A stretch of DNA of 64,000 bases from Haloferula luteola (lineage in GTDB: Bacteria > Verrucomicrobiota > Verrucomicrobiia > Verrucomicrobiales > Akkermansiaceae), in the NCBI RefSeq assembly GCF_014201715.1, contig NZ_JACHFD010000010.1, positions 124,001 through 188,000 on the forward strand, given 5' to 3'. A program made the translations under genes and the position numbers. This document shows positions 2,766-20,748 of the stretch, in pieces (the first letter of the stretch is position 1; every line of letters starts with the position of its first letter). The notes beneath the pieces are model-generated. The model did no database searches. It was not told the origin of the DNA and worked only from the letters and a program-made list of their open reading frames with translations.

Positions 2766-3551
2766 TTACAGGTCTCCACGGGGTTGTCCCAAAGGCAATT
2801 TCGCTTCGATTTCCGCCCGCATGGAATCAAAGACCGCCAGAGCCCCCACTCCGTCCTCCATGACTCCCACCGGCAGGCCGCGGGCGCTGGCTTTCACAAA
2901 AAGAGCATCGCGCGGAACCAAGGTTCCGAGCACCAGTTCCGCGGGCAATAGACTCCGCAACGCCGCCACGGAATCACGGCTTTCCTCCATATCCTTTTGC
3001 ACCATCGTCAATGCAACCCCGAGCACCTTCAGGCCGGGGTGGATGACTCGAAGCCGATTCAATCCCTCCAGCATTTTCGGCAGCGAACGGATTCCCAATG
3101 GCTCTGCCTGCTGGGGAATCAACACCCCATGGCTCGAACAAATCACATCCGCGGTCAGCCCAAAAAGTCCCGCTGGGGTATCAATCAAACAGACTTCAAA
3201 ACCCCGGGCTTCGACCGATCGCAGAAAACTCCTGACTCGCGACAAATGCACGCCCGTCGGGCTGCCACCGATTTCGTAGTCCCCTCCTTGCCCCGCCGTC
3301 ACCAGACTGAAGGTCTCCATCCGCGTGGGCACGATGATCCGCTCCAGAGGGATCCCAGGATCCGAAAGAAAATCGTAGAATCCAGAAAGCAGCCTCGATT
3401 GTCGCGTCAACGAAAGACCCACCGAGCCCTGCGGATCGGCATCGACCAGCAACGTCCGGAATCCCGCCCGCGCCAAGGAGTGTGCCAGGTTGATGGCCAC
3501 TGTGGTTTTTCCAACCCCGCCCTTCTGACTTGATATCGCTATACTAATCAC
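2766..3551 (-). CDS. ParA/MinD-family P-loop ATPase (Soj-like)
   Basis: Starting at the GTG at 3551, the 261-residue product opens directly into a beta strand and the deviant Walker A motif QKGGVGKTT (residues 9-17). This is followed by the Walker A' LLVDADPQGS and a Walker B-like LIDTPAG. A GGAAGG ribosome binding site sits 9 nt upstream of the GTG, which supports this start over longer options. The family forms ATP-dependent dimers on DNA or membrane and positions chromosomes, plasmids or protein complexes. No parB gene or obvious parS site is nearby, so this may be an orphan ParA that positions something else. It is followed at 8 nt by the Roadblock-like gene. It diverges from the lipoprotein gene at 3661. 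Confidence 0.92.
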   Translation of the reverse strand: MISIAISSQKGGVGKTTVAINLAHSLARAGFRTLLVDADPQGSVGLSLTRQSRLLSGFYDFLSDPGIPLERIIVPTRMETFSLVTAGQGGDYEIGGSPTGVHLSRVRSFLRSVEARGFEVCLIDTPAGLFGLTADVICSSHGVLIPQQAEPLGIRSLPKMLEGLNRLRVIHPGLKVLGVALTMVQKDMEESRDSVAALRSLLPAELVLGTLVPRDALFVKASARGLPVGVMEDGVGALAVFDSMRAEIEAKLPLGQPRGDL

Positions 3552-3660
3552 GCTGCTATCCTTCCGAAACCGCGGCCGAGAGTAGCTCGCGCAGAAGGGT
3601 GAGAAAGCCTTTTCTACGCGTGGTCCCACCCCGACGCGCTCCCCTCAACCGACTGTCTTC

Positions 3661-6938: not shown

Positions 6939-7529
6939 ATGCCCCGTCGCACCGCCAGCCGCTCCCGCGCCACGGCCGAAACCCGCATCGAGCTCACCAT
7001 CGACCTCGACGGCTCCGGCACCTCGAAGATCGCAACCGGCGTTCCGTTCTTCGATCACATGCTCACGCTGTTCTCTCGGCACGGCCTGTTCGATCTGGAA
7101 CTCACCTGTGACGGCGATATCGAGGTCGATTCCCACCACACTGTCGAAGACGTGGGGATCGTGCTTGGCGACGCCATCCGCGAAGCCCTCGGAGACAAAC
7201 GCGGCATCCAACGCTACGGCTGCGCCTATTTGCCCATGGACGAGACTCTCTCCCGCGTCGTCGTCGACCTCAGCAACCGTCCTCATCTCGAATTCCGGGC
7301 CCGCGAGAACACGCCGTCCGCCCCGAACTTCCCCTTCTCGCTCGTGGAAGAATTCTGCCGCGCCATCGCATCGAATCTGCGCTGCAACCTTCACGTCGAA
7401 CTCCTCTATGGCCGCGATGGACACCACATCGCCGAAGCCATCTTCAAGGGCCTCGCCCGCTCGCTCCGTGACGCTTGCAGCATCGATCCCCGCGTCACCG
7501 GCATTCCCAGCACCAAAGAAGCCCTCTAA
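6939..7529 (+). CDS. hisB: imidazoleglycerol-phosphate dehydratase
   Basis: The 196-residue protein catalyses the dehydration of imidazole glycerol phosphate to imidazole acetol phosphate in histidine biosynthesis. It has the full set of family motifs: FFDHM near residue 27, the metal-binding DSHHTVED around 64-71, DGHHIAEA around 166-173 and a closing IPSTKEAL. It is the monofunctional type, without the phosphatase domain of the E. coli fusion. hisH follows after 7 nt, so the two are co-transcribed. Other his genes are not in the window, so the pathway is dispersed. Confidence 0.97.
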   Translation: MPRRTASRSRATAETRIELTIDLDGSGTSKIATGVPFFDHMLTLFSRHGLFDLELTCDGDIEVDSHHTVEDVGIVLGDAIREALGDKRGIQRYGCAYLPMDETLSRVVVDLSNRPHLEFRARENTPSAPNFPFSLVEEFCRAIASNLRCNLHVELLYGRDGHHIAEAIFKGLARSLRDACSIDPRVTGIPSTKEAL

Positions 7530-7536
7530 ACCGCTC

Positions 7537-8148
7537 GTGAACGTCGGAATCATCGACTACGGCGCCGGCAATCTCCGCAGCGCCGCCAATGCCGTCCAAT
7601 CGCTTGGGGTCACCCCTCGAATCCTTTCCGATTCCCGCGGGTTCGAAGAACTCACTCACCTGATCCTTCCAGGAGTCGGCGCTTTTGGCGATTCCATGGA
7701 AGAACTCCAGCGTCGCGGCCTCGCCGAGCCGGTCCGCCAATGGATCGCACAAGATCGACCCTTCTTCGGCATTTGCGTTGGCTACCAGATGCTCTTCGAA
7801 GCCGGTCAAGAAAGCCCCGGCATCGCCGGCCTGTCGGTCTTTCCCGGCCAAGTCGTCCGCTTTCCGGAAGACGGACGCAAAATCCCCCACATGGGCTGGA
7901 ATGCCGCTCGCCCCACCGACCTCGCCGACCCCCTATGGCAGGGGCTCGGCGAACTGCCCTACTTCTATTTCGTCCACTCCTACTTCCCAGAACCGACCGA
8001 CCCCTCCCTGGTCGCGATGGAGTGCGAATACGAAGGCACACGCTTCGCCGCCGCCATCCGCCGCGGAAACTTGATCGCCACCCAGTTTCACCCGGAGAAA
8101 AGCCAGCAAGCCGGTATTCGCCTGCTGAAAAACTTCCTCGACCTCTAA
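7537..8148 (+). CDS. hisH: imidazole glycerol phosphate synthase, glutamine amidotransferase subunit
   Basis: The 203-residue class I glutamine amidotransferase supplies ammonia to HisF in histidine biosynthesis. The nucleophile Cys80 sits in FFGICVGYQML, the His/Glu pair in QFHPEKS near the C terminus, and the glycine-rich oxyanion segment in LPGVGAFGD. The start is the GTG at 7537, seven bases after the hisB stop, and it places the first beta strand (NVGIIDYGAGN) at the N terminus as in the family. The partner hisF is not in the window. Confidence 0.96.
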   Translation: MNVGIIDYGAGNLRSAANAVQSLGVTPRILSDSRGFEELTHLILPGVGAFGDSMEELQRRGLAEPVRQWIAQDRPFFGICVGYQMLFEAGQESPGIAGLSVFPGQVVRFPEDGRKIPHMGWNAARPTDLADPLWQGLGELPYFYFVHSYFPEPTDPSLVAMECEYEGTRFAAAIRRGNLIATQFHPEKSQQAGIRLLKNFLDL

Positions 8149-9108
8149 GCTACGCCTCAAGGCATCACCGCTTCCGGATGGCATTGTGAATAACTCGTGG
8201 ATAATTCCCACGGAGATCTCGGTTCTTTTCCCAATCGGCTGAGAATTCATCGCTTTCGGCGCCTGATCGGCCTCTTCCGGGCGGAATGGGCCACGGTGAC
8301 CTCGGGAGATCATTTGTTGCCGAAAAGCCACCCAAACCTCCTCATTTGGAGCCTTTTGTGGAGAAATTCGGGGTCATTCACAGCTTATCCCCAGCTTATT
8401 CCCAATCGCACCGACAGGCCAGGTGACGAATTCGCCCGAATCCTTGCTCTTCCCGGAATCCAGCCGAGTTCTTCCACAGAGTCCATTCCCCCTGTGAATA
8501 ACTTGGGAATGACGATTTCGGCCCGCTTTTAGGCCTCGCATTCATTTCCCGCTCCATCCCCAGATCTCCTCGCTCATCCGGGCCTCCATCACCTCAGGGG
8601 CCGCCCATTCCCGGGGACCTCAGCCCCAGGCTTCGCCGGGGGAATCCGCGTGGGGCCGAGGTCGATTTGGGACAAACCATGAAGCAGAATCCGGATCCAA
8701 CCGGTCTCCTTCACTGCGAACATTCTTCCAACCGTCTCGCCCCCTGTGAATTACGGGATCACGTCTCCTTCCCGACCCCACCCACGGGAATGAAAAAGTC
8801 GGGTGTTTTCCCCGTTTCAGCACGCTTTTTGCCACCGCTCTGCCCTCAGGCCGCAGCTCCCGCTCTCCAGGGGATCCGCTCATCCTGCCCCGTTCTGCCC
8901 TTATCGATCTCCTCCAGACCGACTCAAATCGCCCCCCATTTCCGCGGCAAGCGCAACCAGCCGAACCCGCGCCAAGAGCCTGAGGATGGGCGCCCTCCGT
9001 CATCACGTAACCCCAAATGGGGGCAATCAGGCTCGCCAATTTCAACCAAGCTGTCACCGTTCAGTTGAAATCACCCCTACCCTTAAAGTCAGCGCACCCC
9101 AACTGACG
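8149..9108. other. 960-base stretch without a supported gene; DnaA-box-like cluster in its first part
   Basis: No open frame in this stretch has recognisable protein features. Between 8185 and 8501 it carries two exact matches to TGTGNATAA (8185-8193 and 8493-8501) and five 9-mers one base away from a DnaA box: 8196-8204, 8357-8365, 8374-8382, 8385-8393 and 8396-8404. A further one-mismatch copy is at 8745-8753. The DnaA consensus TTATNCACA is established for many bacteria. Seven near or exact matches in 320 bases of GC-rich DNA is notable. The stretch could be a replication origin, a DnaA-titration site or a DnaA-regulated region. The remaining 600 bases show nothing I recognise. Confidence 0.5.
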
Positions 9109-9348
9109 ATGAAATACAACTCGAAGAAATTCTGGAGAGAAGCCGAAGACGAGGTTGCAAAAAAGAAATCTTGGAGCGTTACCAGCCGAGAAATTGCCCG
9201 AATCATCGGAGTCGACACCATCAGCTACTCAGAACTCAAAGCGAGCTTTGAACCCGGAATTGGAAGAAGCTACTTCGTCTATTCCGGACGCCCTGATGAA
9301 AAAGGAGCCTTCACGCTCCATTTCGTTCAGAGGCCTGTAGGAGCCTGA
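9109..9348 (+). CDS. small protein of unknown function
   Basis: The 79-residue product starts at an ATG at 9109 and is rich in Lys, Glu and Ser. It is less GC-rich in codon use than its neighbours. Residues 20-45 (SWSVTSREIARIIGVDTISYSELKAS) could form a short helix-turn-helix, but this is weak. A TTGAAA hexamer lies about 40 bases upstream. It has no close neighbour on its strand. I do not recognise a family. Confidence 0.4.
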   Translation: MKYNSKKFWREAEDEVAKKKSWSVTSREIARIIGVDTISYSELKASFEPGIGRSYFVYSGRPDEKGAFTLHFVQRPVGA

Positions 9349-13372: not shown

Positions 13373-14239
13373 TCAGGCCGCCTCGGCAAGCCCGGGTTGC
13401 GGCCGGTAGACCGACCATGGTGTGGCGTAGTCGTGGTGCTGATGGATTCGCTCACGGTTGTAGTCGGTGATCCAGCGTGACACTCCGGCCTCCAGCTCCA
13501 CGAGGTTGCAATAGTCCTTCAGGTAGATGTCTTCGCATTTGAGGCTACGCCACAGCCGCTCGATGAAGATGTTGTCCATCCAACGGCCCTTGCCGTCCAT
13601 GCTAACGCGTGCGCCTGTTTCCTCGACCGCGGCGACCCATTCACGGCTGGTGAACTGACAGCCTTGGTCGTTGTTGAAGATGTCCGGTGCGCGACCGGCT
13701 ACCTTCACCGCTTCGCCAAGTGCCTCCAGGCAGAACCGGGTGTCGGCCGTGTTGGAGATCCGCCACGAAAGGACTGCTCGGCTGTGCCAGTCCATGATCG
13801 CCACCAGGTAGGCGAAGCCGCGGCCCATCGGGATGTAAGTGATGTCGGCGCACCCGACTTCGTCCGGCGTGGTGACCTCGCGGTCCCGTAGCAAGTAGGG
13901 ATACTTGCGGTGGTTCTTGTCCGGCACACTCGTGCGCGGCTTCGGCACCACGGCGGCGAGCCCCATGATCCGCATGAGCTGGCGCACCCGCTTGCGGCCA
14001 ACCTTCCAGCCGCGCTTGCGCAGCTCCACGACCAGCTTGCGGGCGCCGTAAACGGGCCAGCGGACGTGCAACTCATCGAGAGCACGCATGATCGCACGGT
14101 CCTCTTCGCTGATACGTTCCGCCGTTTCGAGGCGGTTGCGGTTGATGCCGAGCATGGCGGACTGCTTGCGGATGCTGAGCTGAGGATGGTTCTTTTCGAT
14201 CATGGCTTTTCGTTGAGATCGATCCCCAGCTCCCCGCAC
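13373..14239 (-). CDS. IS3-family transposase OrfB (DDE integrase core)
   Basis: The 288-residue frame begins at a GTG at 14239 but is probably expressed as an OrfAB fusion by -1 frameshifting. It contains the HTH_21-like region (GARKLVVELRKRGWKVGRKRV) and the rve integrase core. The catalytic triad is D132 (CADITYIP), D191 (FNNDQGCQFTS) and E227 (NIFIERLWRS), with the D-35-E spacing of the family. The frame is intact, so the element may still be active. Confidence 0.95.
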   Translation of the reverse strand: MRGAGDRSQRKAMIEKNHPQLSIRKQSAMLGINRNRLETAERISEEDRAIMRALDELHVRWPVYGARKLVVELRKRGWKVGRKRVRQLMRIMGLAAVVPKPRTSVPDKNHRKYPYLLRDREVTTPDEVGCADITYIPMGRGFAYLVAIMDWHSRAVLSWRISNTADTRFCLEALGEAVKVAGRAPDIFNNDQGCQFTSREWVAAVEETGARVSMDGKGRWMDNIFIERLWRSLKCEDIYLKDYCNLVELEAGVSRWITDYNRERIHQHHDYATPWSVYRPQPGLAEAA

Positions 14240-14517
14240 TTTTTTTCGAGGAACTCCTTTTCGATGACCAGCTGGCCAACCTTACGCTCGATGCGCGACA
14301 GGTTGCGCTCGGATTTTTCCTTCTCGTCGCGACCGGACTTGGCCGAGGCAAAGACTTCCGGCAGGCGCTCCTGGAGTTCCTTCTTCCACTGGCTAACCTG
14401 CACTGGATGAATGCCCTCGTCCTGCGCGATTTGATTGATGGTCTTGATGCCCTTGAGTGCCTCAAGGGCCACCCGCGCCTTGAACTCGGCGCTGTGCGTT
14501 CTTCTTTTTCGTTTCAC
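14200..14517 (-). CDS. IS3-family transposase OrfA (helix-turn-helix)
   Basis: The 105-residue product is the DNA-binding half of the IS3 transposase. Residues 1-55 form the HTH_Tnp_1 domain (FKARVALEALKG, INQIAQDEGIHPVQVSQWKKEL). Residues about 70-98 form a leucine-zipper-like helix used for dimerisation. It starts at a GTG and ends 40 bases inside orfB. Confidence 0.93.
   Translation of the reverse strand: MKRKRRTHSAEFKARVALEALKGIKTINQIAQDEGIHPVQVSQWKKELQERLPEVFASAKSGRDEKEKSERNLSRIERKVGQLVIEKEFLEKKCGELGIDLNEKP
14238..14246 (-). promoter_or_regulatory. probable -1 ribosomal frameshift site of the IS3 element
   Basis: The minus strand reads GAAAAAAAGTG across the orfA/orfB overlap, which in the OrfA frame is a canonical A_AAA_AAG slippery heptamer. 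A -1 slip here enters the orfB frame directly. IS3-family elements generally make OrfAB this way. Confidence 0.75.
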
Positions 14518-15360: not shown

Positions 15361-17709
15361 TCACTCGGGCTTGTGAAGCGGATAAAGACGGCGGGTCACG
15401 GTCCCGCCGCGGTTGTGCCAGCTGCAGCCATCTTTCTTCCGGTCGGGCAGGGTGTCGCGCTCGTCGCAGAGGGCTTCGGCAAGAGCGAGGGTGGCGTTGC
15501 CGAGGGCGAGGGCTTCGGCGAGTTCATCGAAATGCCCGGCGAGTTCCTTGAAATGGCAGCCGATCGCGTTGCGGATCTGGAGGCGGGAGAAGACGTCTTC
15601 GAGGAGAGGGGCGAGTGGGATGGGTCTCGTGACGGTTCCTTGTTCGTCGAGATGCTCGCAACGAAGCGCGGGGAGGAGTTTTTTCTCTCCCGCCAGTCCG
15701 CTGCGGTAGTCATTCAGGGTCCAGCGTTGCTCGGCTCCGGGGGAACGAGGCAGGCGGCACTGGTAGATGCCGGTGAGGAAATCGAGGATGTTTTCAAGGA
15801 CCAGACCGGCGGTGTTGGCGATGGCGGACGGGTGTTCGGCCTCCCGCACGTAGCGGCGGAGGAAACTCACTTCCGAGCTCGGCCCTCTTTTCAGGGAGAG
15901 TCCGCTGTCGAGCGTCCAGCGGCCCAGCTCGAGGAACTCGACCTTGTTTTGGGTCAGGATGCCCCAGCGGAACTTGAAGCGCAGCGGCTGGTAATGGCTA
16001 CTGATGACGACATGATGGAAGTGGGCGGATTCCTCCAGGAGAAGCTCGTAGAGCCGCTCCATGTGGGCGTCATCGACCGAGGCGATGGCGTCATCCAGAA
16101 AGAGGATCGTATTGCCCGGGTTCTCCCGTTTCTCAAGCGCGAGGAAGAGGCAAAGGCCGAGGGTATCGAGATGGGACTCGGACAACAAGGCCACCGGGCT
16201 GGCCTCTTTCTTCCCGAAGAGCGTGCCGTCGAACTGCGCGGAGGACTTCTTGTTCGGATGAAGGTAAAGCTGGATGGTCTCGATTTTCTCGCCGTCGTGA
16301 ATTCTCGCGTAGAGCTGGGCGAAATCCCCTGAGATCGCCTTCAATGTCTCGTTGGCATGGCGGATCCTCTCGTCGTGGAGGACTTTCTTGATCGCCTCTC
16401 CGCGCGTGATGGAAAACTCCATGCGCTTGCCATCGCCCTTCGCACTCTTGATTCGATTGAGAGCTCCGCGAACGTCCGACTGCAGCTTGCGCCGGATCTG
16501 GAGGGCGGCATGCTCCCTTTCAACGGTCTCCGAGAGAGGTTTGAGCTGGGGAGCCTCGGCCTTGAGTCCGGCGAACCATCCTTCGGTGAGATCCTCCGCG
16601 TTCTCCATCCCGAGGACCGAGGGGACTAGATCGGGAAGCTGCCATTGCTCGGAATCGACGGCGGCCTGATGAACTTCCCTCAGCTTGATGAGAATCGAGA
16701 GAAAGGATTGCTGGAGCGTTTTCTGCGAGGTTTGCGCGGCGTGGAGAGCCTCTTTGGTATTCTTGGCTTTCTGGCTCTGGTCTTTGACCGCCTTGAGGGC
16801 TTCGAGTTTCTGATCGACCTTTTCGACGAGGGCGGCATGGCCAATTTCCGAATCGCATACCGGGCAGATGCCGGTCCCGCTTTCCCGAAGGAATCCCCGG
16901 GCCTGCTGCAGCGTTTCGAATGCCTTGGCTAGATCGTCGCTGTGGTCGGCGATGAGTTTCGCCAGCGCCGCCTCCTCCTTCTTCACCGCCTCCTGCGCCT
17001 TGGCGACCGCCGGGTAGCTGTCCGCGAGCGGCTTGAAGTCATCGCGGAGCCGTTTGATCTGCTGGTTCAGATCGTCGAGCATCTGGAAGTTCTCAGCGAT
17101 CGTTTCGGCGCTGTCCTGCAAAAGATCCCTTTGCCACTGGTCCTGGCGGCTCCCGTATTTTGCCTTGTCGGCGTGTTCCTCGAACAAAGCACTGAGCATC
17201 TCGCCTGCCTGGGCAATGAGCTTCGACTGGCTTTCCAGATTCCGCTGTTCGGAAAGCACCAGCTCGTTGAGTGCGGCCTCCTCGCGGTCTAGGGCCGGGA
17301 TGGAGACGAAATCCTGAATCCGCTTGAAACGATTCGCTGGGGTTTCTTCTACGAGCTTGGTGATGTTTTTTCGGCTCAGGACCTTGAGCCGATAAGCGAG
17401 CCGCCCGTCAAGCTGGACTTTTTGGCGGGCCAGTCTGGCAGACCGCGTTTGGCCCGCGACTTCGAGCGAGACCCTGAGGTCGACCGCTTTCCTGCACGCG
17501 TTGACCAACTGCCCGAGCTTTGATTTCCCGTCGAGCGACTTTTCCTCGAGGGATCCTGCGGTACCATCGATGACGAACTCGAAGGCATCGGAGATGGTCG
17601 TCTTGCCACTGCCGTTCTCGCCGTAGAGCACGGTGAGGTTCTGTTTCGTGTCGAAACGGATCTCGAAAGGGGAATCCACCCCACGGAAGGCCTCAAGACT
17701 CAGCTTCAT
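15361..17709 (-). CDS. SMC/RecF-like ATPase with CxxC hook and C-terminal extension
   Basis: The 782-residue product has a split ABC-type ATPase. Walker A is GENGSGKTT (30-38), the signature-like segment is LLSESHLDTLGL (509-518) and Walker B is ILFLDDAIASVD (535-546). Long helices, about 145-275 and 290-420, flank a CPVC (C282, C285) that could form a zinc hook as in Rad50, SbcC or RloC. Residues 610-782 are a separate helical domain containing R713-x5-H719 (RNAIGCH), which matches the HEPN nuclease pattern Rx4-6H. A Cys/His/Trp-containing tail (CSWHN, LYPL) closes it. The gene overlaps the 65-aa gene by 17 bases. The ATPase is clear; a nuclease role is inference. Confidence 0.85.
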   Translation of the reverse strand: MKLSLEAFRGVDSPFEIRFDTKQNLTVLYGENGSGKTTISDAFEFVIDGTAGSLEEKSLDGKSKLGQLVNACRKAVDLRVSLEVAGQTRSARLARQKVQLDGRLAYRLKVLSRKNITKLVEETPANRFKRIQDFVSIPALDREEAALNELVLSEQRNLESQSKLIAQAGEMLSALFEEHADKAKYGSRQDQWQRDLLQDSAETIAENFQMLDDLNQQIKRLRDDFKPLADSYPAVAKAQEAVKKEEAALAKLIADHSDDLAKAFETLQQARGFLRESGTGICPVCDSEIGHAALVEKVDQKLEALKAVKDQSQKAKNTKEALHAAQTSQKTLQQSFLSILIKLREVHQAAVDSEQWQLPDLVPSVLGMENAEDLTEGWFAGLKAEAPQLKPLSETVEREHAALQIRRKLQSDVRGALNRIKSAKGDGKRMEFSITRGEAIKKVLHDERIRHANETLKAISGDFAQLYARIHDGEKIETIQLYLHPNKKSSAQFDGTLFGKKEASPVALLSESHLDTLGLCLFLALEKRENPGNTILFLDDAIASVDDAHMERLYELLLEESAHFHHVVISSHYQPLRFKFRWGILTQNKVEFLELGRWTLDSGLSLKRGPSSEVSFLRRYVREAEHPSAIANTAGLVLENILDFLTGIYQCRLPRSPGAEQRWTLNDYRSGLAGEKKLLPALRCEHLDEQGTVTRPIPLAPLLEDVFSRLQIRNAIGCHFKELAGHFDELAEALALGNATLALAEALCDERDTLPDRKKDGCSWHNRGGTVTRRLYPLHKPE

Positions 17710-17890
17710 CGCGGCCTCCCTGTTCGGATTCGAATTGCTTGGTGAGGACGAGATTCCAGTTCACCGGCTTTCCTGTCTTGAGCGCATCGATCACCTCCGC
17801 CGCCGCCGACTTCTCAAGCAGTGGTTTCGTGGAAATGGCGGTCAAGAGCCGCTCTGCGGTCTTGTCGGGGAGCTTTATGGCGGGTGTCAT
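17693..17890 (-). CDS. 65-residue protein between helicase and ATPase genes
   Basis: The ATG at 17890 overlaps the helicase stop (ATGA), and the stop lies inside the start of the ATPase gene. This overlap on both sides strongly suggests a real, coupled gene. The sequence (MTPAIKLPDKTAERLLTAIS...) looks like two or three short helices with an acidic end. I do not recognise a family. It may be an adaptor between the helicase and ATPase. Confidence 0.65.
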   Translation of the reverse strand: MTPAIKLPDKTAERLLTAISTKPLLEKSAAAEVIDALKTGKPVNWNLVLTKQFESEQGGRDEAES

Positions 17891-20748
17891 GGGATCTTCC
17901 AGCGGATGGTGAAGAGCTCTTCCTCAGAGGAATCCGATTTCAGCTTCCCTTCGATTTTCTCGATGAGTCGCTCGCGATTGTTGTCGATTTCGTCCTGAGC
18001 ATCGAAGAGCGAGCGGCGGCGTTCCTTTCGGTGGGACTCGAGGGCTTTGATGTGCTTCTGTCCGGCCAGTTTCTCCTCAAGGGTGAGAGCCGCAGAGGCA
18101 GCGCGCCGGGCCTCCTTGATCTGGCGGTCGATGTCCTTGATTTCCCTTTCGAGGCCGACCTTCAAGTCGTCGGCCCAATTGTCGAGTTTGGTTGCCTCGT
18201 CCTCAAAGAATCTGGCGTTCCGCTCCGAGATGTCGCGTCCGATCCGGGCCTGCTCTCTACGACTGAGTTCATCGAGACTGGACGGCGGGGACTCGGCGAG
18301 CGTACGCAACTGATCACCCGGCAGGGAGAGAAGACGGCGGGCGGTTTCCTCGTCGAGTGTTTGCCCGGCATCCGTATGGGCGGCCAAGATCAGATAGTCC
18401 TCGGTCTGGTCGAGCGATTCAACCGTGTAGCGGGAAGCCGTTAGCCACCCGGATTGGCCGATGAAGGGTTCCAGGATAGAAACCTTTCCCTCGTGAGTCT
18501 CGTAGCTGAACGAGATCTCGGCGGGTTCGAGGGAACGCTCTTTGGCAGCGCCAACCACGGCCTCAGCGAGAGGATGACCCAGGCGGTACAGGTGCGCTTC
18601 CCCGGAACGGCGAGGAAGCTCGTAGCGACCAAGGGGAGTCTTTTCGGCGATCTCCGGAAAGGGCGGCGTTAGGAGCCGAAAGGTGCCTTCGCCCTGAAAC
18701 TCCGCGTGGCCGTTCAATTCGTGACGGGTCAGCCGCATGAGCTGCCGCTCGAACTGGCCAAGAATGGCCTTCGAGTCTTCGTCGCGGATCTTGAGCTTTT
18801 CGCGAACCTCGTCATCGAAGTGCTCCAGGAGCTTCTTCCGAGTGGAGGTCATCGCTTCGTTGATCTCGAAGCTCAGCTCCAACTGAAGGGCGTCGAAGGC
18901 CTCCTGAATCTGCTCCGGCTGCCGACACTGCTGATAGATGGTCGCGATGCGCTTTTCGAAATCCACCCCGGAGCCGATGGCACCGAGGACTTCGTCGCTG
19001 GCCCCGAACACGCCCTCGAAGAGATTGAACTTCTCGGCGAGGAGCTGGTAAACGCGCTGATCGGCAGCGTTCTTCTTATTGAGGAAGTTGACGACAACCA
19101 CGTCATGCTTCTGCCCGTAGCGGTGGCAGCGTCCGATGCGCTGCTCCACTCGCTGGGGATTCCAGGGGAGATCATAGTTGATGACGAGCGAGCAGAACTG
19201 GAGGTTGATGCCCTCGGCTCCCGCCTCGGTCGCGATCATGATGCGACCCTCTTCGCGGAAATAGTCGACGAGTGCCGAACGCATGTCGGCGGTCCGTGAG
19301 CCGGTCACCCGATCGCTGCCTTCGTGGCGGACTTTCCAAGACTCGTAGATCTCCTTCGAGCGCTCGTCGTTGTTCACGCCATTGAAGAGCACAATACCGT
19401 CACTCCATTCGCTCTCCGAGAGAAGCCGGAGGAGGTAATCTTGAGTTCGGCGGGACTCGGTGAAAATGATGGCCTTCTCGGCAGCCTTGAGTCCGGCAAT
19501 CCTGTTGAAGGCGACTTTCAGTGCCCGGAGGAGAGCTTGTCCCTTGGCATTGATGGTGATTGAGGTGGCCAGATCCGCAAAAGCTTTCAGTTCGGCGATT
19601 TCCGAGGCGAGAGCCTGGCGGTCGGCTTCGGACAATGGCTCGGTGGCGTCTTCGTCTTCGCTCCACTCCTCGGCGGTTTCATCCAAGGACTCGTAGTCTT
19701 CGTCGAGTTCATCGACCAGCGAGAGCTTCTCCTGATCCGCCAGATCCCGACGCAGCCGTCGAGCCATGGTTTGCAGCGCTCCGGCAATGGCGAAGGTGGA
19801 GGACGCGAGCAACTTCCGCAGGACCAAGGTCATGAGGGTGCGCTGTTGCGGAGGCAGCGCGAAGAGGTTGTCTCTGCCAAGATAGTCGGAAACCAATTGA
19901 TACAATTGGGACTCGCTCTGCTCAGGAGTGAACTCCTCGACGATGGCGTGCCGTGCCGTGTAGGGCACATATTGGGTCACCTGTCGGCGAAGGGTGCGGT
20001 GACAAAGCGGTGCCAGACGCGCCTTGAGCGAATCAAAGGTATCGCTCTGGCTGAGGTTGGCGAATTGCTGCCGGAAGCTCTTGAGATCACCGAATGCATG
20101 CTCGTCGATGAACGAGACGAGACCGTAGAGCTCGAGAAGGGAATTCTGAAGCGGAGTGGCGGTGAGAAGAACCTTCGGCCGACCTTCGAGCGCGTTCTTC
20201 AAGGTATTCGCAATGACGTTGCCGGTCTTGTAGACATTGCGGAGCCGGTGGGCTTCGTCGATCACCACCAGATCCCACGGCGTCGAGACGACATCCTCCG
20301 CCTTGTTCCGGGCGAAGTGGTAGGAGCAGATGACGAGACTTGGCTCGTCCGGCTGGAAGGGGTTGTCGTTTCCGGCTTTGGCCGCCTGATTGTAGGACTG
20401 GGCTTCAAGGATGGTGGCAGGCAGGAAGAACTTCTCCGCCAACTCCTGGTGCCACTGCTTCCGGAGATTTGAGGGGGTAATGATCAGGATCCGGCGCTTC
20501 CGTTCGGCCCACCGCTGCGAAAGCAGAATTCCGGCTTCGATGGTCTTACCCAAGCCGACTTCATCGGCCAAGAGCGCCCCGTTCGAGAACGGGGACTTGA
20601 ACGCAAAGAGCGCGGCATCGACCTGATGGGGATTCAGATCCACCTGTGCCCCCGCCACGGCAGCCGCGAGCTTGCCCACGCTGTCCGACGACCAGCGTCG
20701 AGTCAGCTCGTATGCGAGGTATTTGGCTTGGTGGCCGGTCAAAGACAT
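17887..20748 (-). CDS. SNF2-family helicase/translocase, RapA-like architecture
   Basis: The 953-residue protein has all SF2 motifs: DEVGLGKT (62-69, motif I), DEAH (164-167, motif II), LLTATPLQNS (about 194-203, motif III), IATEAGAEGINLQ (motif V) and QRIGRCHRYGQ (motif VI). An acidic insertion lies between the two RecA lobes (EDEDATEPLSEAD). After about residue 600 come a middle domain and a charged coiled coil (about 820-920). Proteins of this family move along double-stranded DNA and occur in several anti-phage systems (e.g. DISARM DrmD). It is the first gene of the accessory operon. Confidence 0.92.
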   Translation of the reverse strand: MSLTGHQAKYLAYELTRRWSSDSVGKLAAAVAGAQVDLNPHQVDAALFAFKSPFSNGALLADEVGLGKTIEAGILLSQRWAERKRRILIITPSNLRKQWHQELAEKFFLPATILEAQSYNQAAKAGNDNPFQPDEPSLVICSYHFARNKAEDVVSTPWDLVVIDEAHRLRNVYKTGNVIANTLKNALEGRPKVLLTATPLQNSLLELYGLVSFIDEHAFGDLKSFRQQFANLSQSDTFDSLKARLAPLCHRTLRRQVTQYVPYTARHAIVEEFTPEQSESQLYQLVSDYLGRDNLFALPPQQRTLMTLVLRKLLASSTFAIAGALQTMARRLRRDLADQEKLSLVDELDEDYESLDETAEEWSEDEDATEPLSEADRQALASEIAELKAFADLATSITINAKGQALLRALKVAFNRIAGLKAAEKAIIFTESRRTQDYLLRLLSESEWSDGIVLFNGVNNDERSKEIYESWKVRHEGSDRVTGSRTADMRSALVDYFREEGRIMIATEAGAEGINLQFCSLVINYDLPWNPQRVEQRIGRCHRYGQKHDVVVVNFLNKKNAADQRVYQLLAEKFNLFEGVFGASDEVLGAIGSGVDFEKRIATIYQQCRQPEQIQEAFDALQLELSFEINEAMTSTRKKLLEHFDDEVREKLKIRDEDSKAILGQFERQLMRLTRHELNGHAEFQGEGTFRLLTPPFPEIAEKTPLGRYELPRRSGEAHLYRLGHPLAEAVVGAAKERSLEPAEISFSYETHEGKVSILEPFIGQSGWLTASRYTVESLDQTEDYLILAAHTDAGQTLDEETARRLLSLPGDQLRTLAESPPSSLDELSRREQARIGRDISERNARFFEDEATKLDNWADDLKVGLEREIKDIDRQIKEARRAASAALTLEEKLAGQKHIKALESHRKERRRSLFDAQDEIDNNRERLIEKIEGKLKSDSSEEELFTIRWKIP

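Follow-up and report, generated by a model that had tools for sequence, protein, structure and literature searches.

The trans-acting elements datA and DARS have been worked out mainly in Escherichia coli and related proteobacteria. The former promotes the hydrolysis of ATP bound to DnaA, the latter the release of ADP from DnaA. The excerpts on which we draw describe both as DnaA-control elements from these organisms (PMC5742627, PMC4585315). In those excerpts, datA consists of five DnaA boxes and an IHF site, and its minimal form comprises boxes 2, 3, and 7 with the IHF site; the spacing between its binding sites matters, and its organization and relative distance from oriC are conserved among E. 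coli strains (PMC4585315, PMC5742627). For DARS, the available text places box I opposite boxes II and III at distances that DARS1 and DARS2 share, and gives DARS1 a total length of 101 bp (PMC5742627). DnaA boxes outside oriC are also reported for several chromosomal regions of Bacillus subtilis, where the accessible part of the study presents four promoter-containing intergenic regions and a table with intragenic sites (PMC4447404). In titles and the beginnings of abstracts from open-licence PMC, the literature on DnaA boxes and replication in Verrucomicrobia, Akkermansia, and Luteolibacter and on datA-like elements contained no element of the kind described below.

The DNA analyzed here, which we call the window, is a stretch of 64,000 nucleotides (C10:124001-188000) from the draft genome of Haloferula luteola (G000; 84 contigs, 4.90 Mb, 95.5% complete). 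NCBI taxonomy places Haloferula in the Verrucomicrobiales, family Verrucomicrobiaceae; we take the GTDB family name for this organism to be Akkermansiaceae. A first-pass annotation had reported two exact TGTGNATAA 9-mers, five one-mismatch copies, and an eighth box in this stretch, and all are present: the exact boxes at 8185 and 8493, the one-mismatch copies at 8196 and 8357 on the plus strand and at 8374, 8385, and 8396 on the minus strand, and a further plus-strand one-mismatch copy at 8745. New relative to that annotation is the arrangement of these boxes in same-strand tandems with an 11-bp step (8185/8196, 8374/8385/8396, and 8493/8504). The tandem pattern YGKGRATRANNYGKGRATRA has 5 matches in the 4.9-Mb genome, 4 of them inside the cluster, and 0 in the reversed control; since it was built from sites already seen, these counts measure its rarity elsewhere and are not an independent match (Table 1).

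Table 1. Boxes of the DnaA-box module in the window and the genes on its A side. Positions count from the first letter of the window.
Feature	Position	Strand	Description
Site A	8185..8204	+	Strong DnaA box TGTGAATAA followed at 11 bp by a second box CGTGGATAA; site A of relatives aligns here
Site B	8374..8404	-	Three boxes in 11-bp steps, TGGGAATAA, TGGGGATAA, and TGTGAATGA, one mismatch each; at the position of the relatives' minus-strand site B
Site C	8493..8512	+	Strong DnaA box TGTGAATAA and weaker box TGGGAATGA, 11 bp apart
One-mismatch box TGTGGAGAA	8357..8365	+	Between A and B; no conserved counterpart in aligned relatives
One-mismatch box TGTGAATTA	8745..8753	+	Isolated, outside the module; probably incidental
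hisH, imidazole glycerol phosphate synthase subunit HisH	7537..8148	+	NCBIfam TIGR01855 above cut-off; 3' end flanks the module, likewise in four relatives
hisB	6939..7529	+	Pfam IGPD; adjoins hisH in G002 too

The unusual feature is the local clustering of boxes and not their number across the window. Exact TGTGNATAA occurs 16 times in the whole 4.9-Mb genome, and the window as a whole holds 17 boxes versus 12.2 expected, a count reached by 10 of 100 shuffles. The intergenic interval 8149-9109 holds 8 boxes versus a shuffle mean of 0.24 and maximum of 2 (500 shuffles). With up to one mismatch allowed, the maximum density is 7 boxes per 320 bp, at the cluster, versus at most 3 elsewhere in the 445 kb of genome examined, and a Poisson model predicts about 1.6e-8 clusters of 7 boxes per 320 bp per genome. 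Comparing box density with the rest of the genome, as the first-pass annotation had proposed, thus bore the cluster out as a real feature.

Relatives carry this cluster in a fixed design, in which a box pair A on the plus strand is followed after 211-244 bp by B on the minus strand and after a further 87-112 bp by C on the plus strand, a typical site being a strong box with a weaker box 11 bp on. A DNA similarity search with window positions 8140-8800 against 37 relatives found no match. Ten loci oriented alike align essentially at the boxes only, with A(+) and C(+) in all ten and B(-) in nine (G015 is without B). One of these relatives, G002, has three exact boxes directly beyond hisH, and its hisH-side genes match those of the window. 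From nine loci of the genus we drew a composite pattern, TGTGAAYAA N205-235 TTRTTCMCA N76-106 TGTGAAYAA, which demands exact boxes and set gaps (A-B 214-244, B-C 85-115) and cuts off other spacings. It matched 41 of 386 genomes of the order, once in each, and the reversed control matched none of the 386; 7 of the 41 had been used in drawing the pattern and 34 were new. The matches fall under six genus labels within one family (g19, 23; g1, 12; g26, 3; g21, g23, and g25, 1 each), and there was no match in the other families of the order that were listed. The strict pattern is missing from 345 of the 386 genomes, including genomes of g3 and g24 in the same family, so the element is either not universal or more divergent there.

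Within the window's own genus, 12 of the 16 genomes searched match the composite pattern. Recognizable copies outside it occur in G000, G015, and G017, and no copy was seen in G008. The window's A-B distance of 211 bp is below the 214-244 bp of the pattern, which is why the composite search misses this genome; its copy also has no site D (see below) and no exact B box. Across the 41 modules, A and C both read TGTGAAYAACTTG(G/T)G with an A-rich tail, B has the reverse-complement sequence, and little else is held in common; the motif with this tail is readable as a strong box with a weaker box at 11 bp. Boxes and spacing are therefore what is conserved, the DNA between them mostly not. A k-mer count of the spacers, which searched for further conserved motifs, brought out a fourth site, D, on the minus strand of 22 of the 41 modules; it precedes B by 105-107 bp in 20 of them and by 98 bp in the other 2. 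At 49% GC, the A-B spacer is richer in AT than its flanks (59% GC).

The distances between sites are not spread evenly over their range. B-C spacing in the 41 modules falls into three groups, 87-94 bp (9 modules), 98-102 bp (12), and 107-112 bp (20), with nothing between them and about 10.5 bp from one group to the next. A period of 10-11 bp is supported at p<1/20000 for all 41, p=0.0009 for the window's genus, and p=0.005 for the rest, although on distinct spacing values alone p=0.12; shared ancestry thus inflates the significance of the phasing, related genomes not being independent. A-B spacing is 219-224, 228-236, or 244 bp, and here a jitter test at 10.5 bp gave p=0.00025, yet periods above 12 bp fit better than 10.5 bp. 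The B and C sites look, from their spacing, as if they were helically phased.

We lean toward reading 8185-8512 as a non-coding, non-origin DnaA-binding element functionally resembling datA and under selection in part of one Verrucomicrobiales family. A non-coding array of fixed geometry that lies away from the probable origin and is indifferent to its neighbors makes a datA-like action the most plausible. In the mechanism that we envisage, three tandem strong/weak sites (four in some relatives), oriented A+, B-, C+ and in roughly helical phase, would be bound by DnaA, which would nucleate on each strong box and then extend onto the weak one. The sites could meet by looping on one face of the DNA to form a large complex, and by analogy with E. 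coli datA this complex would remove or inactivate DnaA, restraining initiation at a distant oriC. DnaA binding, looping, and the sign of the effect (a sink or inactivation over a DARS-like reactivation) are what we infer here. Comparing only the general features of datA that the excerpts describe, both are non-coding, lie outside oriC, and group several DnaA boxes at conserved distances, whereas the present module has three tandem pairs over about 330 bp, belongs to another phylum, and lies at a variable distance from parS.

It is possible, and we suggest it with less confidence, that this single-copy phased array of three to four tandem DnaA-box pairs represents an undescribed replication-control element of Verrucomicrobiota, with changing neighbors, an off-origin position, and a looped control of DnaA unlike that of datA or DARS. 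The pattern, which many related bacteria carry in a single copy, may act in the control of chromosome replication. Such a once-per-genome DnaA-box module in several Verrucomicrobiota genera would suggest a wider origin or persistence of elements of this kind, and it would offer a comparative system in which a conserved geometry with natural steps of one helical turn occurs in the same genomes as a separately recognizable probable oriC.

The main alternative, ranked below a datA-like element and in our estimate unlikely, is a DARS-like element that would reactivate ADP-DnaA to ATP-DnaA. The module has three principal sites of mixed orientation, is non-coding, and lies far from the probable origin, and the DARS1 and DARS2 cores of E. 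coli, as the excerpt presents them, likewise have three boxes, one opposed to the other two, at non-coding positions outside oriC (PMC5742627). The arrangement of the sites is different, however: it is the middle site that opposes both outer ones here, in the order A+, B-, C+ over about 310-370 bp with gaps of 87-112 and 211-244 bp, while in DARS box I opposes II and III, and the core described for DARS is not found in the module.

A DnaA-regulated promoter or transcription control region of a neighboring gene has a similarly low probability in our judgment. According to the B. subtilis study (PMC4447404), DnaA regulates transcription at certain regions away from the origin, and in some relatives, such as G310, a gene start seems to face site C about 180 bp away. 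The genes around the module argue otherwise. Of the 17 genus genomes with hisH, five (G000, G014, G002, G017, and G015) have the cluster no more than 1.5 kb from this gene, which is on its A side; we therefore rejected the hisH neighborhood as a defining context, as it is not general. A small ORF without a Pfam match, whose product begins MP(E/D)TIEAEV and has a hydrophobic stretch, adjoins the cluster in G002, G014, G017, and G015 and in other relatives and was not found beside the window's copy. Across 44 loci (the 41 plus G000, G015, and G017) it occupies the C side of 16, its 3' end facing the module; another C-side gene is common to 11 of the 44, and A-side genes vary as well. Luteolibacter marinus and Haloferula rosea are among the named relatives with a neighbor gene of the element. 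In G002, G014, G017, and G015 the module lies between two facing 3' ends, those of hisH and the small ORF, and is not obviously a promoter, and it stays in place while its neighbors change between lineages. The likeness to B. subtilis is that DnaA boxes occur outside oriC, whereas that study presents promoter-containing intergenic regions and a table with intragenic sites (PMC4447404), and here there is one stereotyped module per matching genome, tied to no single gene.

The sites might instead belong to a regulator other than DnaA that recognizes TGTGAATAAC(TTGG), a possibility to which we give still less weight. The conserved motif is longer than a 9-mer, and the A and C boxes read TGTGAATAA or TGTGAACAA and not TGTGGATAA, the search pattern having admitted these alone. 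The DnaA of the window's genome has the three domains expected (N-terminal, AAA+, and HTH). Its HTH can be aligned to DnaA chains of known structure, reading GGRDHGTVIHA versus GGRDHTTVLHA in chain 1j1v, which we take to be E. coli DnaA. In the window's genome the recognition helix (L004:7060-8661) reads RDHGTV where 1j1v has RDHTTV, whose threonine presumably touches DNA bases; this difference might be related to a preference for TGTGAATAA over TGTGGATAA. Against another regulator, the boxes of the element, TGTGAATAA included, fit the DnaA consensus TTATnCACA as given in the excerpt (PMC5742627), similar boxes occur at the probable oriC, and the extension of the motif is readable as a second box at 11 bp.

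The first-pass annotation had left open whether the cluster is oriC or a DnaA-binding regulatory region; the second of these is supported, boxes and spacing being conserved in part of the family, and the first is not. It had claimed no skew switch, and the 193-kb contig C10 is indeed C-rich in all 4-kb bins but two (136-144 kb): for about 130 kb before the cluster and, past those two bins, on to the contig end. Replication therefore most likely passes this locus in one direction, and the skew check that had been proposed came out against an origin here. Its statement that no dnaA, dnaN, or gidA is nearby also holds, with dnaA-dnaN on contig C5 and mnmG/gidA on C27 of the draft assembly. The dnaA-dnaN locus was rejected as an origin candidate, with at most 2 boxes per 320 bp in the 18 kb read.

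We searched for parS with a 16-mer pattern allowing up to 1 mismatch and found parS-like sites in 18 of 18 genus genomes. In 16 of these, two or three sites lie close together on one contig; G017 and G005 carry only one, and G011, G014, and G016 have a further site on another contig. The reversed pattern gave one match per strand in 4 of the 18 genus genomes and 2 of 14 others, so single matches are weak and pairs were used instead. In the window's genome, three parS-like sites lie in and just before mnmG/gidA on C27. Skew along this 50-kb contig is mixed at 0-20 kb, minus at 20-34 kb, plus at 34-42 kb, and then near zero, the minus-to-plus switch being local. At the switch, C27:35690-35902 holds three one-mismatch boxes about 5 kb away from parS; on one side is pdhC (dihydrolipoamide acetyltransferase; NCBIfam score just below the cut-off), on the other the conserved portion of a threonylcarbamoyladenylate synthase gene. 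This interval, near pdhC and gidA/parS and away from dnaA-dnaN, is the probable oriC. It is not strongly AT-rich, there being no 200-bp window below 47% GC in C27:30-46 kb, so a test of AT-richness counts little.

G002 is a single contig of 5.68 Mb. Within 2.30-2.56 Mb its cumulative skew minimum is at 2.48 Mb, about 64 kb from parS; sampled skew is plus at 2.48-5.04 Mb and minus on either side of this range (below 2.48 Mb, other than at 0.72 and 2.38 Mb, and from 5.12 Mb upward). The sole group of at least 3 boxes in these 260 kb (2424713-2424925) is downstream of pdhC. In 8 of 9 genus genomes the 600 bp that follow pdhC contain boxes (one box in G008), with the first two boxes 60 bp apart in 6 of the 9 and a plus/minus pair 144-146 bp apart in 4 of the 9; a like pair, 145-146 bp apart, lies near pdhC in all three further genomes (G123, G218, and G262). 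The ninth genus genome, G012 (C2 parS region), has none in these 600 bp, so it may have a different origin.

Skew and parS agree in G002 and, locally, on C27 of G000; in G010, apart from exceptions at 3.2 and 4.4 Mb, and in G123 the agreement is rough. In G262 they disagree: parS is at 1.59 Mb, and sampled skew is minus at 0.08 Mb and 0.3 Mb, plus over 0.7-1.45 Mb, and minus over 2.1-3.2 Mb. The use of parS to mark the origin is therefore not established for every genome. For five relatives, the contig with the module is close to the full genome in length; taking it as circular, we place the module at 0.35 (G002), 0.32 (G010), 0.48 (G123), 0.25 (G218), and 0.26 (G262) of the genome from parS. 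If five places were drawn at random, all would be this distant or more in about 1 of 32 cases, by a threshold set after the values were seen, and the distance is not constant between relatives; parS may not mark the origin in G262.

That the cluster itself is oriC is very improbable: its dense DnaA boxes in a stretch without recognized genes, and the sampled skew of G262, which turns from minus to plus at 0.32-0.70 Mb, closer to the module (0.09 Mb) than to parS, speak for it, but we reject it because of the skew, with no lasting switch on C10 and the G002 module (4.42 Mb) in an arm of plus skew, as sampled at 4.20, 4.41, and 4.68 Mb, because of the position of parS on another contig or, in the five relatives, far from the module, and because the region downstream of pdhC is a better candidate; the cluster also has no AT-rich unwinding element, with 54% GC overall and 46% in its lowest 100 bp in a window of 60% GC.

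A second cluster in the same genome, at G000:C11:136550-136780 (L003:8551-8781), has three exact DnaA boxes in 231 bp with 40% GC in a locus of 58.5% GC. Further clusters of 36-58% GC occur in relatives (G010 at 4.61 Mb, G003:C4, G012:C12 and C13, G013:C173, G009:C1 and C9, and G007:C8). We rejected these as copies of the same element, since they share no flanking genes except G009:C9 with G010 and there is no skew switch at the C11 cluster.

Several other features of the window were recorded. A gene for a ParA/MinD-type ATPase (2766-3629, minus strand), about 4.6 kb from the box cluster, is conserved in G002, and the adjacent ORF at 2005-2757 has no Pfam match. An IS3 family transposase (13373-14517, minus strand) scores above the cut-off of NCBIfam NF033516, and a small ORF upstream of it, without an NCBIfam match, resembles by eye the first ORF of an IS3 pair. 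The region 15361-20748 on the minus strand, which lies inside a G-rich stretch at 11-22 kb, is a probable defence island. It encodes an SNF2-type helicase with a strong match (E 9e-212) to a DrmD model and an AAA ATPase whose matches, of LmuB-like type, are weaker.
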